Source: Paludisphaera rhizosphaerae (lineage in GTDB: Bacteria; Planctomycetota; Planctomycetia; Isosphaerales; Isosphaeraceae). Taken from it: DNA of 64,000 nucleotides. A program made the translations under genes and the position numbers. Below, piece by piece: positions 47,522 through 56,425 of this stretch. The notes under the pieces were generated by a model. The model worked only from the letters and a program-made list of their open reading frames with translations. It searched no databases and had not been told where the DNA came from. The stretch spans positions 62,001-126,000 of the forward strand of contig NZ_JAALCR010000020.1 of the NCBI RefSeq assembly GCF_011065895.1, in the 5' to 3' direction. Each line of letters begins with the position of its first letter. Within the stretch, counting starts at the first letter, position 1.

Positions 47522-48490
47522 TTACGCCTGTTCGCCCAGGGGTGTCGGAAAGACCAGCGACTCGGCCTCTTCGGGCTGCTCGTCCTCCTCCATTTCTCCC
47601 GTCGTGACCAGGCCGACCGACGCAAGGATGACGATCATGGCCGTCCAGGCGGCGGCCGTGATCGGCTCGTGCTCCACCAGGCTGCCCAGGAGAACGGCGA
47701 CCACCGGGTTGACGTAGGCGTAGGTTCCCAGCCGCGCCGGGGACGTTGCCGTGATGAGCCAGCCGTAGGCCGTGTAGCCGAGCAGCGAGCCGAAGACGAT
47801 CAGATAAACCCAGGCCGCCGCCGAGGCTGCCGAGACGTTGGCCGCGTGAAAGGTCTGGGCCTCGCCGCGAAGCAGGCCGAGCGTGACCAGGGTCGCGCCG
47901 CCGGCCAGCATCTGCATGCCCGTCGAGAGCGCCGTCGAGTCCGGCAAGGCCGCCTCGCGGAGGTAAAGCGAACCGACGGCCCAGGAGAAGGCGGCCAGGA
48001 TGATCGCCAGCGAGCCGATCAGCATCATCCCGCCGGCGTCGCCCTCGCCGCCCCCCGGCAAGACCAACGCGCCGACGCCCGCAAGCCCGATGGCCAATCC
48101 CGCCGTGATCCTCGCCCCGGGACGTTGGCCCCCGAAGAAGGCCCAGGAGGTCAGCACGAGCCACAACGGCTCGGACGCGATCAGCAGCGCCGTGATGCTC
48201 GACGGGACGAACTGCTCCGCCCAGGTGACGCAGCCGTTGCCGACGGCCAGCATCAGGACGCCGCCCACCGCGGCCCGTCGCCACTGCCCCGCCGACGGGA
48301 AAGCCGAGCCTCGGGCCAGCGACAGGCCGCAGAGGATCGAGCCGGCGACCAGGAAACGCGACCCCGCCATGAGCAGAGGCGGGAGCGTCTTCAGGCCGAT
48401 CCGGATCGCCAGGTAGGTCGATCCCCAGACCATGTACACGATCGCAAAGGCCGCGATGAGCAGCCACGTCCGACGTTCAAATCGCATCAC
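47522..48490 (-). CDS. EamA-family transporter (DMT superfamily)
   Basis: 322 residues with ten hydrophobic segments in two EamA repeats. The N-terminal one starts LLIAAFAIVYMVWGSTYLAIRIGL, the usual RhtA/YedA-type opening, and the second near LAIILAAFSWAVGSLYLREA. The C-terminal tail is acidic. DMT exporters move amino acids or other metabolites out of the cell. It lies just downstream of, and overlaps by 14 bp, an Lrp-type regulator gene, which suggests amino-acid-responsive export. It ends 13 bp from the convergent DUF1501 gene. Confidence 0.9.
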   Translation of the reverse strand: MMRFERRTWLLIAAFAIVYMVWGSTYLAIRIGLKTLPPLLMAGSRFLVAGSILCGLSLARGSAFPSAGQWRRAAVGGVLMLAVGNGCVTWAEQFVPSSITALLIASEPLWLVLTSWAFFGGQRPGARITAGLAIGLAGVGALVLPGGGEGDAGGMMLIGSLAIILAAFSWAVGSLYLREAALPDSTALSTGMQMLAGGATLVTLGLLRGEAQTFHAANVSAASAAAWVYLIVFGSLLGYTAYGWLITATSPARLGTYAYVNPVVAVLLGSLVEHEPITAAAWTAMIVILASVGLVTTGEMEEDEQPEEAESLVFPTPLGEQA

Positions 48491-48959
48491 CCTGTCCCTC
48501 GGACGTTCCCGGGATCGGGACCGTCGCCGTTTCCTTCAGCGTCTCCATGACGATGGTCGTTCGCGTCGACCGGATCGAGGGAATGACGCCGATCTTCTCC
48601 CGCAGCAGCTTGCCCAACGCCTCAACGTCCGACGTCCGGATCTTGATGAGGTAGCAGTCCTCCCCCGCGATGTGGTGGACCTCCTGCACCTCGGGGATCG
48701 CCGCCAGCACCTGGGCCGACGCCACCCCCCCCACCGGGTCGTCCGACTTCACGAACGTGAACGCCACGAGCCCATACCCGAGCTTCCGCGCATCGACCCG
48801 CGCCTCATACCCGCGCAGGAGCCCGCGCTCCTCCAGCTTCTTCACCCGCTCCAGTACCCCGGAGGGCACCATTCCCACTCTTCGGGCGAGTTCTGCATTG
48901 GTGATCCGGGCTTCGGTCTGAAGATAATTCAGAATTTGGCGGTCGATGTCGTCGATCAT
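48477..48959 (-). CDS. Lrp/AsnC-family transcriptional regulator
   Basis: 160 residues from the ATG at 48959, where the family sequence begins (MIDDIDRQILNYLQTEAR). The winged helix-turn-helix is at about 17-45 (TNAELARRVGMVPSGVLERVKKLEERGLL) and the RAM/ligand-binding domain at about 65-145 (VHHIAGEDCYLIKIRTSD). The extended frame to 49052 is not protein-like. A GAGGA lies about 9 bp upstream. It overlaps the transporter gene and probably controls it in response to an amino acid. The 266 bp to the divergent PaiB-like gene hold the promoters; no operator could be identified. Confidence 0.93.
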   Translation of the reverse strand: MIDDIDRQILNYLQTEARITNAELARRVGMVPSGVLERVKKLEERGLLRGYEARVDARKLGYGLVAFTFVKSDDPVGGVASAQVLAAIPEVQEVHHIAGEDCYLIKIRTSDVEALGKLLREKIGVIPSIRSTRTTIVMETLKETATVPIPGTSEGQGDAI

Positions 48960-49225
48960 TCGGCTAGGTCCTCGGATCTGAGAATTCTGACCGACGGAAG
49001 CATTTCTGTCAACGCCGAGGTTCTTGATTTGCACGATTCCGCCGAACATCATTCGCCGAATCTTTGTTCCGTGGGATGATCGTTCGCGTTTGCTAGACTA
49101 ATCGGAGTGATTTCAGGTTCGCGGAAGCCCCGAAAGGCGGGCGAACCGAACGTGGCGCTGAGATGTCCGGTTACTCCGAGCGAGCCCGCCCCGGGACGTG
49201 AATCCTTATTTCAAGGCCCTGTCCG

Positions 49226-49855: not shown

Positions 49856-51154
49856 TCACGAGAAGCGAGTGCGTCTCCAAAGCACCATCCCGCCGACCGC
49901 GAGGAAGACCAGCGAGAACGCCGAGAGCACGGCCATCCAGTGATAATCCATGGCGATCGCCGGGCTCGAGGCATTCAGTCCGAGCCATACGAAAATCGCC
50001 AGCGCCCCGGCCACGATCAGGAACTCCCACCAGGGACGACGCCCCGATGCGGTTTCAGTCGCTTCTTCCCCACCCACCGCGGCGGCGACCTCAACGGGGT
50101 CCAGACCGTAGCGGCGGCATTCGCGTTCCATCGCGAGCCGCCATGAGGCCTGCTCGGAAGCCGGCGCTTCGGCCAGGCCGATCGCGACGGCCCCGGCGAT
50201 CATGACCAGCGAGCCGCCGACGACCAGCATGCGAGCCTCGGTGCTCAACGCGGCCAACTCGCCGAAGACGAGGGCACCCCACGCCAGGCCCCAAAGCTGG
50301 TTCGTGTTCGAGAGCGGGATCCCCCGGCCAATGCCGATGTACTTCGCCGCGTACTGCTGGAAGAGGTCGCCCAGAACCCAGCAGAACCCGCCCAGAAACA
50401 GCCAGAAAAGCGACGGCATCGCGCGGCTCAACTCGGTTTGAAGGCCGCCCACGCCTCCCTGGTAGATCAGGGCGAGAGGCAGGGTCGTCCCCAATTCGCC
50501 GACCGTGAACACGGTGACGAACGAGAGCGGGTTCATGCCGCTGATGTAGGCCTTACGATAGGGGATATACATCGTCCCCCAGAGAACGCCCGCCCCCAAC
50601 GCCGCGAGGATCCCGCGCGTCCGGGCACCCTCGGCGATGGTGGCGCTGGAATGCTGCGTCGCGTAGGCCAGCAGGCATGCGCCGATGACGATCGCGCCGG
50701 CGCCGCCGAGAACCTTGGCCCAGTCCTTCGTCTCCGACCCGCGAAGCTCGTTGAACAGCAGCCAGCCCCAGAACAGGCCGATCAGGCTGTTGGTATTCCA
50801 GAGCGGAAAGGCGATGGAGAGGCCGACGTCGCGGATTGCGAAGACCGTCAGCGTGTTGGCCACCGCCCAGAGCATCCCCGCGAGGATCGCCCAGACGATC
50901 AGGTGGGGCCTGGCCTTCAGGTCGCTCGCCAGCGAGTGCGTCCCCCGCAGCATGACGGGGACTGTCCAACGGGCGACGAACACTCCGGCGACCATCCCCA
51001 GCGAGACGATGAACGGCGTGAGCCCCGCGGCGACGAGCTTCGTCGGAGCCTCCGCCGCTCCCAACCAGGCCCCGGCGGCCAGCCCGCTGGTCACGCCCAC
51101 GCCGTGCAACGACCTCGGCGCGCGCACTTCGACTTCCGGGGACTGAATCGTCAT
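49856..51154 (-). CDS. GRP/RhaT-like sugar transporter of the inositol oxygenase operon
   Basis: 432 residues with about ten membrane segments plus two more (about 370-420) after a long hydrophilic loop. FPLWNTNSLIGLFWGWLLFNELRG and the second-half counterpart PLSNTNQLWGLAWGALVFGEL are the repeat motifs of the GRP (glucose/ribose porter) and RhaT families in the DMT superfamily. It starts 4 bp after a 33-residue peptide gene and is last in an operon headed by myo-inositol oxygenase. Uptake of inositol or export of a product such as glucuronate is the natural guess; not shown by the sequence. Confidence 0.85.
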   Translation of the reverse strand: MTIQSPEVEVRAPRSLHGVGVTSGLAAGAWLGAAEAPTKLVAAGLTPFIVSLGMVAGVFVARWTVPVMLRGTHSLASDLKARPHLIVWAILAGMLWAVANTLTVFAIRDVGLSIAFPLWNTNSLIGLFWGWLLFNELRGSETKDWAKVLGGAGAIVIGACLLAYATQHSSATIAEGARTRGILAALGAGVLWGTMYIPYRKAYISGMNPLSFVTVFTVGELGTTLPLALIYQGGVGGLQTELSRAMPSLFWLFLGGFCWVLGDLFQQYAAKYIGIGRGIPLSNTNQLWGLAWGALVFGELAALSTEARMLVVGGSLVMIAGAVAIGLAEAPASEQASWRLAMERECRRYGLDPVEVAAAVGGEEATETASGRRPWWEFLIVAGALAIFVWLGLNASSPAIAMDYHWMAVLSAFSLVFLAVGGMVLWRRTRFS

Positions 51155-51158
51155 AGTT

Positions 51159-51260
51159 TCACTTCAGCATGGAGAGGAGCGCCAGCCCGCCGGCCAGCAC
51201 GACGACCGGGATCCAGAATTGAACGTCGCTGAATACGGCCTTCGCGTTCGAGATCTTCAC
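51159..51260 (-). CDS. 33-residue single-span membrane protein
   Basis: A GTG start at 51260 lies inside the stop of the upstream gene (GTGA), with an AGGTG 7 bp before it. The product has a short polar N-terminus (VKISNAKAVFSDVQF) and one hydrophobic span (WIPVVVLAGGLALLSML). The next gene (transporter) follows 4 bp after its TGA. The exact stop/start coupling on one side and close packing on the other argue for translation. Possible role: a small subunit or regulator of the transporter. No homologue recognised. Confidence 0.6.
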   Translation of the reverse strand: MKISNAKAVFSDVQFWIPVVVLAGGLALLSMLK

Positions 51261-51559
51261 GACCAGACACCTATGATCGTAAGGACGAAGGACGCCAGGA
51301 TGAAGTAGAGGGCGGCAGCGGCGATGGAGATGAGCCCGGTCCAGACATAGCGGAGAATCGGGTTGCGCGTCGCTCGATAGACCTTCTGGTTGACGACCCA
51401 GGCGCCGGCCCCACATCCACCGCCGATCCCTCCGCCCACGACAACGAGGACGAGCGGGAGCGCGAGCCAGGCCTGAACGTACCAGGGCAATTTGGGTTCC
51501 GCCGCCGTCTCCTCTGTAGTGACGGCGGCCGTCGAGGACGGGGATTCTTCGTCGGTCAT
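51257..51559 (-). CDS. Small membrane protein with two or three spans, inositol oxygenase operon
   Basis: 100 residues; GGAGG 4-5 bp before the ATG. About 25 acidic/Thr-rich residues precede WYVQAWLALPLVLVVVGGGIGGGCGAGAWVV (one long glycine-rich span), a basic loop (NQKVYRATRNP) and a second span (VWTGLISIAAAALYFILASFVLTII). Starts 18 bp after the oxygenase stop, with its own stop coupled to the 33-residue peptide. Not recognised. Likely part of the transport or membrane complex of the operon. Confidence 0.7.
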   Translation of the reverse strand: MTDEESPSSTAAVTTEETAAEPKLPWYVQAWLALPLVLVVVGGGIGGGCGAGAWVVNQKVYRATRNPILRYVWTGLISIAAAALYFILASFVLTIIGVWS

Positions 51560-51577
51560 GGAGCCTCCGGGATCGAC

Positions 51578-52462
51578 TCACCAGGCGAGCTGCGCCGGGA
51601 AGTACTCGGCGATCAACTCCTGGTAGTAAGGCGTCAGGGCCTTGACGTCGGGCTTGGTGTGGCCCTTGGAGTACAGGTCGTACGGGTTGAACTTGCGGAC
51701 CCACTCCAGCAGGCGACGGTCCTTCTCGTTCGTCAGGTGCGTGTACGCCCCGGCGCGGTGCCAGGCGTAGAACGAGTGGTACCGGATCATCGCCAGACCT
51801 TCCTCGGGGAGGTAGTCCTTCACGACGTTGTAAAGGTACTCGTCGTGGCCCCACGAGAGATGGACCTCGTCCAGGCCGCAGCCTTCCCGGTAGATGCCGC
51901 AGGGCGTCTGATATTCGGCGACCTTCGAATCCGGGTTGTCGGCGAAGAACTCGGGGAAAACGATCTCCTCAGAGTAGGCGCAGCCAACGGGGAACGTGTC
52001 GCCGACGACCGCCCACTGGGGCTCGCCGAAGAGGCAGAGGATCTTCCCCAGATCGTGGACGAGCCCGGTGAGGATGAACCAGCGGGGATGGCCGTCGGCG
52101 CGGATGGCCTCGGCCGTCTGCATCAGGTGCTCGATCTGGGAGAGATCCGTATCCGGGTCGCTGTCGTCGACCAGCGTGTTGAGGAACTCCATCGCCTCCC
52201 AGACGCCCATCACCTTGCGCTGACGCGGCAAGTACTCGCGCTTCTTGGCGAGCACGAAGTCGAGCGTCTGGTTGGTGTGCTGGAGCTTGTAGAACTCCCG
52301 GACGCCGGCCCGGACGTTCTTGCGGTAGTCGCGGAACTCAGACTCCTTCTTGCCCTCGCGGGTGAGCGGCGCGTCGGCCTCGTCGGTGACGTGCGCCGAC
52401 TCCCAGTCGTCCAGGTCGGCCAGGGGACTCTGCTGCTGCGCGTCTGCGATCGACTTGGACAT
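51578..52462 (-). CDS. MIOX: Myo-inositol oxygenase
   Basis: 294 residues, full length and close to the animal and plant enzymes. All six di-iron ligands are in place: His112 (EHLMQTAE), His136 and Asp137 (LVHDLGK), His206 (SWGHDEY), His229 (RYHSFYAWH) and Asp262 (NPYDLYSK). Long identical stretches such as LFGEPQWAVVGDTFPVGC also occur. The enzyme opens the myo-inositol ring with O2 to give D-glucuronate. It is cytosolic, first gene of an operon with two small membrane proteins and a GRP-type transporter. CAGGAG about 10 bp before the ATG. Bacterial copies exist but are uncommon. Confidence 0.95.
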   Translation of the reverse strand: MSKSIADAQQQSPLADLDDWESAHVTDEADAPLTREGKKESEFRDYRKNVRAGVREFYKLQHTNQTLDFVLAKKREYLPRQRKVMGVWEAMEFLNTLVDDSDPDTDLSQIEHLMQTAEAIRADGHPRWFILTGLVHDLGKILCLFGEPQWAVVGDTFPVGCAYSEEIVFPEFFADNPDSKVAEYQTPCGIYREGCGLDEVHLSWGHDEYLYNVVKDYLPEEGLAMIRYHSFYAWHRAGAYTHLTNEKDRRLLEWVRKFNPYDLYSKGHTKPDVKALTPYYQELIAEYFPAQLAW

Positions 52463-52588
52463 GTTGGGACGACTCCTGCAAAACCGGAGGTTCAGCGACG
52501 GACGGGCGATCGGATATGAGGGTTTCGCACGACCCTGATCGACCCATTGTAGAATCGACCCGAGGATCGCGTCACCTTGAAACGGCTC

Positions 52589-55072: not shown

Positions 55073-56425
55073 TCACGAACGGGATTCCTGCTTTCGGTCG
55101 CTCCGGTAGCGTGGGCCCTCGCCGGTGCGGAGCCAGTGCGGCTCGGCGCCCGTCTCGTCAAGGAAGGCCAGGAGGACGTCGCTGGGGATGCGGACTCCGG
55201 TTTCGTAGTCGTACCAGGAGCGGACGGGGATCCCCAATCGGCGGGCGAGTTCCGGGCCGCCGCGCTCGCCGAAGAGGTCTTCGCGGATCTGCGCCAGGCG
55301 GTCTGAGAACGCCCGCTTGGCTTCGAGTACCTCTGGCGATGGCCCCTCTGGCGATGGCCCCTCGGGCTCCTGGATGTGCTGCATGAGGGCCCCCTGGTTC
55401 CAGGTGTCCCAGCCCTCGACCATGACGCCGTCCTTGAAGCGGAGCCAACTCGTGCCGCGAGCGAAGATCGGCTCGTGGGACGGAGGGACGCCCAGGCCGT
55501 CGCCGGTGTGCGTGCCGGAGATCGTCCAGCGCACCACCACATCGTCGCCTTGGGCGAGGGTGTCCTCGATCTGAACTCTGAGATCCGGAATGGCCTCGAG
55601 GAACGAGTCGCGGACCCGTTTGAAGGGCTCGCAGCCGACGACGTCCCCGCCTTCCATGTGACCGACGGAGGTCTCGCAAAGCAATTCGTCGATGGTATCG
55701 GCCCGCCGTTCGTTCCATACTTCCTCGAACCATCGCTTCGACTTCTCGCGATTCGCGAGACTCGCCAACAGGATCTCCGCCGGGACGGTCGGCGGGCCGT
55801 TGCTCGGTCGCAGTGGGCCGGTCGGCTCGCCCCGTTCGAGCTTTTCGAGGGCCTCGCGCAGCAACTCCACGGGACTTCGCTCGCCGGGGGCCGACGGCCC
55901 GCCGGCGTTCTTCGAGGCGAGGGCAGCCGCGGCCTGGTGCTGCTCATGGAGGTGTTGCATGAGGGCCCCCTGGTTCCAGGAGTCCCAGCCCTCGGTCATC
56001 TGACCGTCCTTGAATCGGTGCCAGGTCATCCCCCGCGCGGCGATCGACTTGTTGCAGGGGGGGACGCCCAGACCATCGCCGGTGTGGGTGCCGGAAACGG
56101 TCCAGCGAACCACCACGTCGTCGCCGGCGGCGACCGTGTCCTCGATCTCGAACTTCAGGTCCGGGAATGCGGTGAGGAACAAATCCCGAACCTGCTTGAA
56201 GGGCTTGCGGCCCACGAAGTCGCCGGACTCCATGTGGCCGAGCCCCTCCTCATGGAGCAACTCGTCCACAACCTCCGCACGTCGCTCGTTCCAGACCTCT
56301 TCGAACCATCGCCGCGACAGGTTGCGATTCGCGTCGCTCACGTCGGCCTCCATTGGCATATGTTCCCGGATCGGTCGAGCGGGGCCCAGCAGCCTCGAGA
56401 GGAGATCTTCCGCCGGTTGTCGCAT
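55073..56425 (-). CDS. Double SnoaL-like domain protein fused to XRE-type helix-turn-helix
   Basis: 450 residues. Two homologous SnoaL/ester-cyclase-like domains (about 35-160 and 230-352) share RRWFEEVWNERRA..., GDDVVVRWTVSGTHTGDGLGVPP and EGWDSWNQGALMQH; they are products of an internal duplication. The C-terminal 70 residues match an XRE/Cro-type HTH: ELARRLGIPVRSWYDYETG followed by AEPHWLRTGEGPRY, as in phage repressors. A hinge of Pro/Gly/Ser separates the parts. A start at 56359 is also possible. SnoaL domains bind small hydrophobic or polyketide-like molecules, so a ligand-sensing regulator is a reasonable inference. Monocistronic. Confidence 0.85.
   Translation of the reverse strand: MRQPAEDLLSRLLGPARPIREHMPMEADVSDANRNLSRRWFEEVWNERRAEVVDELLHEEGLGHMESGDFVGRKPFKQVRDLFLTAFPDLKFEIEDTVAAGDDVVVRWTVSGTHTGDGLGVPPCNKSIAARGMTWHRFKDGQMTEGWDSWNQGALMQHLHEQHQAAAALASKNAGGPSAPGERSPVELLREALEKLERGEPTGPLRPSNGPPTVPAEILLASLANREKSKRWFEEVWNERRADTIDELLCETSVGHMEGGDVVGCEPFKRVRDSFLEAIPDLRVQIEDTLAQGDDVVVRWTISGTHTGDGLGVPPSHEPIFARGTSWLRFKDGVMVEGWDTWNQGALMQHIQEPEGPSPEGPSPEVLEAKRAFSDRLAQIREDLFGERGGPELARRLGIPVRSWYDYETGVRIPSDVLLAFLDETGAEPHWLRTGEGPRYRSDRKQESRS

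Follow-up and report, generated by a model that had tools for sequence, protein, structure and literature searches.

Soils are rich in inositol and phytate, and Acidobacteria are abundant there too; to our knowledge, the bacterial inositol importers described so far belong to the major facilitator superfamily (MFS) or to the ATP-binding cassette (ABC) type. KdpF, AcrZ and CydX, for their part, are mini-subunits of transporters or other membrane complexes. Described inositol importers include the MFS proteins of the IolT type and the ABC system IbpA-IatA-IatP (PMC9430895, PMC2597717). On the enzymatic side, FjMiox of Flavobacterium johnsoniae led to the production of glucaric acid in engineered yeast (PMC12076931), and a glucuronate cluster of Francisella holds an inositol oxygenase gene beside a sugar-proton symporter gene and uxaC (PMC3479022). 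Here, we examine a locus of the planctomycete Paludisphaera rhizosphaerae (Isosphaeraceae) where genes for a myo-inositol oxygenase (MIOX), a 33-residue peptide and a transporter with the drug/metabolite transporter (DMT) fold follow one another. The window, that is the whole stretch of DNA analysed, comprises 64,000 nucleotides (nt) of contig NZ_JAALCR010000020.1 (assembly GCF_011065895.1, positions 62,001 to 126,000), and the locus occupies its positions 49,856-52,462 on the minus strand.

Judging by gene content and its recurrence in other genomes, this locus is likely an inositol uptake-and-oxidation cassette, combining import by the DMT transporter and its mini-subunit with oxidation by MIOX. 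The transporter and its 33-residue accessory subunit would move myo-inositol, and perhaps further inositols, through the inner membrane. MIOX would then open the inositol ring with O2 to yield D-glucuronate, which would be used by general sugar-acid catabolism. From the genes and their context, we infer that the transporter works as an importer and not as an exporter, that its substrate is inositol and that the peptide binds to it.

The peptide and its transporter

The transporter gene (49,856-51,154, minus strand) encodes 432 amino acids (aa) and scores above the Pfam cut-offs for Sugar_transport (PF06800, 39.5 vs 26.3 bits), EamA (PF00892, 30.4 vs 28.2 bits) and TMEM144; no MFS or ABC family is found among its four Pfam matches at E up to 0.1. 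Against NCBIfam TIGR00776, which represents the RhaT/GlcU sugar-proton symporters, the protein reaches 40.8 bits and stays under the cut-off of 319.6. At E up to 0.001, this family is matched by all 37 aligned members of the transporter group, and NF047342 by 32 of them. An AlphaFold2 model based on these 37 members (mean pLDDT 87.9, pTM 0.87) was compared with known structures by VIA-align. The top 21 rows, whose assignment to DMT-type transporters we take in part from general knowledge, have Z-scores of 13.5-25.5 over approximately residues 10-341, and the next row falls to 8.2. The best match, with a Z of 25.5 (rmsd 2.1, 250 residues, 18% identity), is LicB (PDB 7b0k, 7paf), deposited as a choline importer. 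The 21 rows stop between residues 325 and 341, the LicB match ending near 327, and the model thus predicts a RhaT/LicB-like core (about residues 15-330) prolonged by a C-terminal extension with two long helices (375-393 and 404-429). On this model, the transporter is a DMT-fold protein, and by sequence it is distantly RhaT-like. Searched against PDB chains, neither the transporter alignment profile nor the peptide profile gave a match at E up to 1.

The peptide gene (51,159-51,260, minus strand) starts with GTG and encodes 33 aa with one hydrophobic stretch, predicted to form a single helix. It is a member of a conserved peptide family with the consensus xKxSxLxAILTDxHFWVPVxVLxxGxxLLxxL. When 28 members were scanned against Pfam and NCBIfam, no family was recovered, one Pfam match (E 0.034) and three NCBIfam matches (E 0.077-0.091), each in a single member, being at chance level. 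A scan of named contigs gave 228 transporter relatives, the best 80 of which were kept, mostly from Acidobacteria. These 80 loci were searched with a peptide profile trained on 24 rows, which had come from a search with a profile built on the same 80 loci, and the peptide was present in 79; the one miss has 41 nt of upstream sequence. It lies on the same strand and at most 250 nt upstream in 74 loci, overlaps the matched transporter start by 3-42 nt in 3, and shares one frame with the transporter gene in L064 and L068. No second copy was found in any of the 80 loci at E below 1e-3.

Such a position, close to or overlapping the transporter start in most loci and 4 nt from it in the window, is also what would be seen if the small open reading frame (ORF) were a translated leader or a translational coupler setting ribosome entry at the transporter start, and not a subunit. 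We hold this to be improbable in view of how the peptide has been conserved. Residues D13, P19 and L30 never vary in the 80 core rows, and 79 of these rows keep G26. The second codon positions are the most conserved, with mean differences per 25 codons of 9.5, 5.2 and 13.9 at positions 1, 2 and 3 (2,835 pairs from 78 loci, differing at 5 to 40 bases), an order expected under protein-level selection on the peptide. The peptide is moreover retained in two loci where it lies away from the usual place: 2.15 kb upstream of the transporter in L127 and, in an acidobacterial bin (L118:6750-9257), on the strand opposite to MIOX and the transporter, in divergent orientation.

The association was then counted in 297 genomes, drafts and metagenome bins included, sampled from the phylum of G435, a Solibacteraceae bacterium with locus L053. 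The transporter is encoded in 28 of these genomes, in 29 copies. With an E of 5e-10 or better, the peptide is found in these 28 and in no others, three more genomes having weak matches (5e-4 to 8e-3). This co-occurrence gives a Fisher p of 6.6e-40, uncorrected for relatedness; four of the 28 genomes (G435, G452, G662 and G733) supplied peptides to the search profile through L053, L126, L083 and L129 and are therefore not independent of it. The peptide stands on the same strand, no more than 230 nt upstream, in 28 of the 29 copies. The 29th pair, in G475, is split between a contig ending 129 nt after the peptide and another ending 31 nt before the matched transporter start, and reads as an assembly break. 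The same contig end (L156) accounts for the single miss among 27 fetched loci, the other 26 having the peptide.

From this distribution, the peptide looks like an obligate mini-partner of the transporter, conserved and so far uncatalogued. A first, sequence-only reading of the locus had proposed a multi-part transporter, a view supported by the recurrent pair in all 28 transporter genomes of the phylum sample. It had missed that, across genomes, the conserved unit is the peptide together with the transporter, a unit that elsewhere stands beside the iol pathway. Among open-licence papers, searched by titles and abstract openings, we found none on this peptide, on a DMT-type inositol transporter, or on MIOX in Planctomycetota or Acidobacteria.

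Inositol pathways beside the pair

Two inositol pathways recur next to the pair in neighbourhoods delimited with a simple ORF caller (which missed the MIOX ORF of L150, recovered by tblastn). The first is that of MIOX, which passes the cut-off in 36 of the 297 genomes of the acidobacterial phylum sample: 19 of the 28 transporter genomes have it, compared with 17 of the 269 others (Fisher p 7.8e-14, shared ancestry ignored), and it is encoded within 10 kb of 14 of the 29 transporter copies. In 11 of these 14 loci, the transporter is directly followed on its strand by a called gene from a single cluster, one member of which was identified as a LacI-family regulator. The second is the iol pathway. 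Among the 80 named loci, 33 carry IolB, IolC, IolD or IolE, 7 IolG only (some with IolA), 3 MIOX and 37 none of these in the available flank; for the 57 loci with more than 4 kb upstream, the figures are 26 with the iol core, 2 with IolG only, 2 with MIOX and 27 with none. In L052, an operon with IolB, IolD, methylmalonate-semialdehyde dehydrogenase (MMSDH) and IolG above the NCBIfam cut-offs continues with the peptide and the transporter; it also has a gene whose sole match is IolE, below the cut-off (192.5 vs 290), and a transaldolase-like gene between IolB and IolD. In L061, L064, L068, L077 and L102, the iol genes come after the transporter on the opposite strand, so that the link outlives rearrangement. 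Of 18 chosen genomes, 7 have IolD over the cut-off, and 5 of these show no iol gene at the transporter locus itself (L053, L055, L069, L076 and L086). As inositol is the metabolite common to the MIOX and iol routes, its import is the simplest account, and the recurrent linkage lends support to the inositol-to-glucuronate gene set with its own transporter that the sequence-only reading had put forward.

Several observations weigh against this account. The 37 loci without an inositol gene in the available flank are close to half of those kept, and 6 of the 28 transporter genomes lack both MIOX and IolD, one or the other being present in 22. IolD, over its cut-off in 11 of the 297 genomes, is not clearly enriched with the transporter (3 of 28 vs 8 of 269, p 0.07). 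In four loci (L134, L138, L139 and L141), the pair lies in a common neighbourhood without inositol genes in the available flank, so that some members may have a different substrate. G606 has L139 as its second copy, the other (L149) being MIOX-linked. Within the family Isosphaeraceae, 18 of the 22 MIOX-bearing genomes are without this transporter, no search having been made for other transporters in them. Finally, the sole uronate isomerase (PF02614) match in the P. rhizosphaerae genome is weak and partial (37.1 bits, cut-off 25), so that any glucuronate route there is putative; this domain passes the Pfam cut-off in 27 of the 45 family genomes with scores of just 29-60 bits.

The loci and genomes without visible inositol genes make a wider substrate range quite possible for some members of the transporter family. 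They are also compatible with a transporter for a sugar acid or a polyol other than inositol, for instance for glucuronate or for the product of a periplasmic enzyme, its closeness to inositol genes reflecting general sugar-acid catabolic islands; LacI-type regulators and TonB-type receptors nearby, both general sugar-utilisation genes, point the same way. We regard this alternative as rather unlikely, given that inositol is the metabolite shared by two unrelated pathways, which are linked to different branches of the transporter tree, and that the iol pathway does not yield glucuronate. Inositol import remains for us the better reading of the two linkages.

The planctomycete cassette itself is rare and compact. 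Among 45 family genomes, the transporter is present in 4, always preceded by MIOX and by a member of the peptide family. In the three relatives, blastn blocks of 2,464-2,504 nt take in MIOX with some of the DNA upstream of it, the peptide and the transporter, and the genome of the same genus shares a further ~105 nt upstream with the window. Outside these blocks and the ~105 nt, no DNA match was obtained at E up to 1e-5 in the comparison of 21 kb of the window and 10.8-16 kb from each relative. A scan of the planctomycete phylum for the transporter at E up to 1e-10 returned its own genome alone (1 of 392). The peptides of the three relatives, which start with ATG, have 42-44 residues, the last 26-27 of which alone match the window peptide.

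The four genes described by the sequence-only reading could, in principle, be accidental neighbours forming no functional set, as might be suspected from the many MIOX-bearing family genomes without the transporter and from a 100-aa ORF of the locus that is found in this genome only. We consider this very improbable: MIOX, peptide and transporter keep the same order in four genomes, the ~2.5 kb block is common to three relatives whose surroundings have no DNA similarity, and a separate MIOX linkage exists in Acidobacteria. The expectation that the small genes and the transporter would be conserved next to MIOX was correct in part. It holds for the peptide and the transporter (all 4 family genomes with the transporter, and the 14 of 29 acidobacterial copies with MIOX within 10 kb) and fails for the 100-aa ORF and for the 18 MIOX-bearing family genomes.

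Trees of both proteins suggest how the cassette arose. The transporter tree (107 rows, built with a quick method and rooted at the midpoint, L130 and L132 being dropped as duplicates of L083 and L129) unites the four planctomycete rows (SH-aLRT 100) and nests them, together with five iol-linked rows, in a group of nine (99); the acidobacterial MIOX-linked rows fall in a separate 26-row group (96; 15 with MIOX, 11 with none). In the MIOX tree (39 rows, where L048 is G001, the same genome as L011), the cassette MIOX is placed within Isosphaeraceae MIOX (99/94), apart from acidobacterial MIOX (100/99). The transporter and the MIOX of the cassette thus appear to differ in origin, and from these different placements MIOX was probably paired with this transporter family at least twice. 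The cassette transporter appears to have been taken over from the iol-linked branch found in Acidobacteria and relatives, and to have been put behind a MIOX of planctomycete type. Taken together, these results would fit a further architecture of inositol importer beside the MFS and ABC types: a DMT transporter with a C-terminal two-helix extension, needing a dedicated 33-residue subunit, present mainly in Acidobacteria, and moved to planctomycetes as a ~2.5 kb cassette re-wired from iol to MIOX. For this broader proposal, we see the chances as evenly balanced.

MIOX, gene layout and neighbouring genes

The MIOX gene (51,578-52,462, minus strand) encodes 294 aa and matches PF05153 with an E of 3.7e-114 (380.9 bits, gathering cut-off 25); its alignment with mouse MIOX has an E of 3e-78. 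In this alignment, the six positions that we take to be the iron ligands of the mouse enzyme (H98, H123, D124, H194, H220 and D253) are all conserved, and seven further positions that we take to belong to the active site are also identical, giving 13 of 13 checked positions. The score and the residue map bear out a full-length MIOX with six iron ligands. The description of MIOX as mainly eukaryotic was, on the other hand, overstated. It is encoded in 22 of the 45 family genomes, that of P. rhizosphaerae counted, as well as in the acidobacterial genomes mentioned above, and an active bacterial MIOX has been published (PMC12076931). The idea that MIOX would be unusual in itself was rejected on the same grounds.

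Other genes recur around MIOX in the family. At 7 of 20 family MIOX loci, the largest neighbour cluster has a gene no more than five called genes away from MIOX (three of the 20 loci being cassette holders). One member of this cluster (L028:5789-7780) is a D-xylonate dehydratase of the YjhG/YagF type, and the cluster can be taken as a lead for what becomes of the product. Ahead of MIOX, three family loci have a gene of another cluster, whose member in L030 has only a match below the cut-off, to a GntB-type hydroxylase (98.6 vs 380 bits). Beyond these family loci, a further cluster has members beside MIOX in L135, L136 and L137, that of L137 (L137:5711-6619) passing the cut-off for subclass B3 metallo-beta-lactamases (332.5 vs 240 bits).

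All four ORFs of the sequence-only reading were found in place on the minus strand. The MIOX gene is separated by 18 nt from the 100-aa ORF (51,257-51,559, minus strand), whose stop is overlapped by 4 nt by the GTG start of the peptide, and the peptide stop is followed after 4 nt by the transporter start. Such spacing suggests co-transcription of the four ORFs. At codon positions 1, 2 and 3, MIOX has G+C contents of 0.63/0.37/0.93, the peptide of 0.59/0.35/0.88, the transporter of 0.63/0.52/0.87 and the 100-aa ORF of 0.60/0.52/0.79. In each of the four cassettes, DNA similarity reaches past the MIOX start into the upstream DNA, and the region similar among them (52,463-52,560, minus strand) is a putative promoter/operator. 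It contains, around 52,546-52,560, a -10-like TACAAT (52,546-52,551) flanked by repeated GGGTCGAT-like words, alike by eye in the four cassettes; together they form a possible operator candidate.

The 100-aa ORF, with two hydrophobic stretches, had been regarded as a membrane protein belonging to the system, a role that its distribution does not support. It has no relatives in the family beyond its own genome (1 of 45), and none of the three related cassettes has a 100-aa ORF between MIOX and the peptide, where they hold 76-87 unmatched nt vs 344 in the window, the ORF included; the shared block is thus split in the window. Outside the own genome, a search of 216 genomes of the phylum returned only matches that we take to be at chance level, the best at E 2.4e-4. 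Thirteen genomes, the own one included, were at E 0.01 or lower, the other 12 with about 18-23 bits and several with internal stops or inside long frames. A match in L053 (E 6e-3) was discarded, as it falls in the frame of a longer ORF and disappears under other search settings. The ORF was therefore rejected as a component of the system and is probably, by its distribution, a passenger outside the conserved set.

Two further features of the window may be mentioned. Close to the cassette, a gene for an EamA-family transporter (47,522-48,490) overlaps one for an Lrp/AsnC-type regulator (48,477-49,052). On the other side, a 450-aa ORF (55,073-56,425) shows an unusual combination: matches to two SnoaL-like domains and, after them, a weak helix-turn-helix match that does not reach the cut-off.

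Comparison with known systems

If true, a DMT-type importer with an obligate mini-subunit would be an added class of transporter, and a clear test case of what a one-helix protein with some 33 residues contributes to a large transporter. ORFs as short as that of the peptide are easily overlooked by genome annotation. One transporter paired separately with two unrelated inositol pathways would, in addition, illustrate how gene context can reveal a substrate.

The window MIOX resembles FjMiox and the other members of PF05153 by its family score and its active-site residues; it differs in being encoded with a peptide and a DMT transporter, and is known here from its sequence. The Francisella cluster likewise associates a bacterial inositol oxygenase gene with a sugar transporter gene, yet its symporter is annotated as XylT, a D-xylose-proton symporter, and not as a DMT protein, and the part of the source consulted mentions no mini-protein (PMC3479022).

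With the RhaT/GlcU/RbsU symporters (TIGR00776, NF047342, PF06800), the window transporter has a distant sequence relation, but it remains far below the NCBIfam cut-off and possesses a C-terminal extension and a conserved peptide partner. It has the DMT fold in common with LicB, whereas its C-terminal extension has no counterpart in that match; we know of no mini-protein linked to LicB. As in KdpF, AcrZ and CydX, one short helix would accompany a large membrane protein. This likeness would be an analogy of action, the window peptide having no sequence-family match and its binding to the transporter being hypothetical. Finally, MFS importers of the IolT type and the ABC system IbpA-IatA-IatP share with our transporter the proposed substrate and the association with inositol catabolism (PMC9430895, PMC2597717), but they belong to other superfamilies, the window transporter being a DMT protein with a 33-aa partner.

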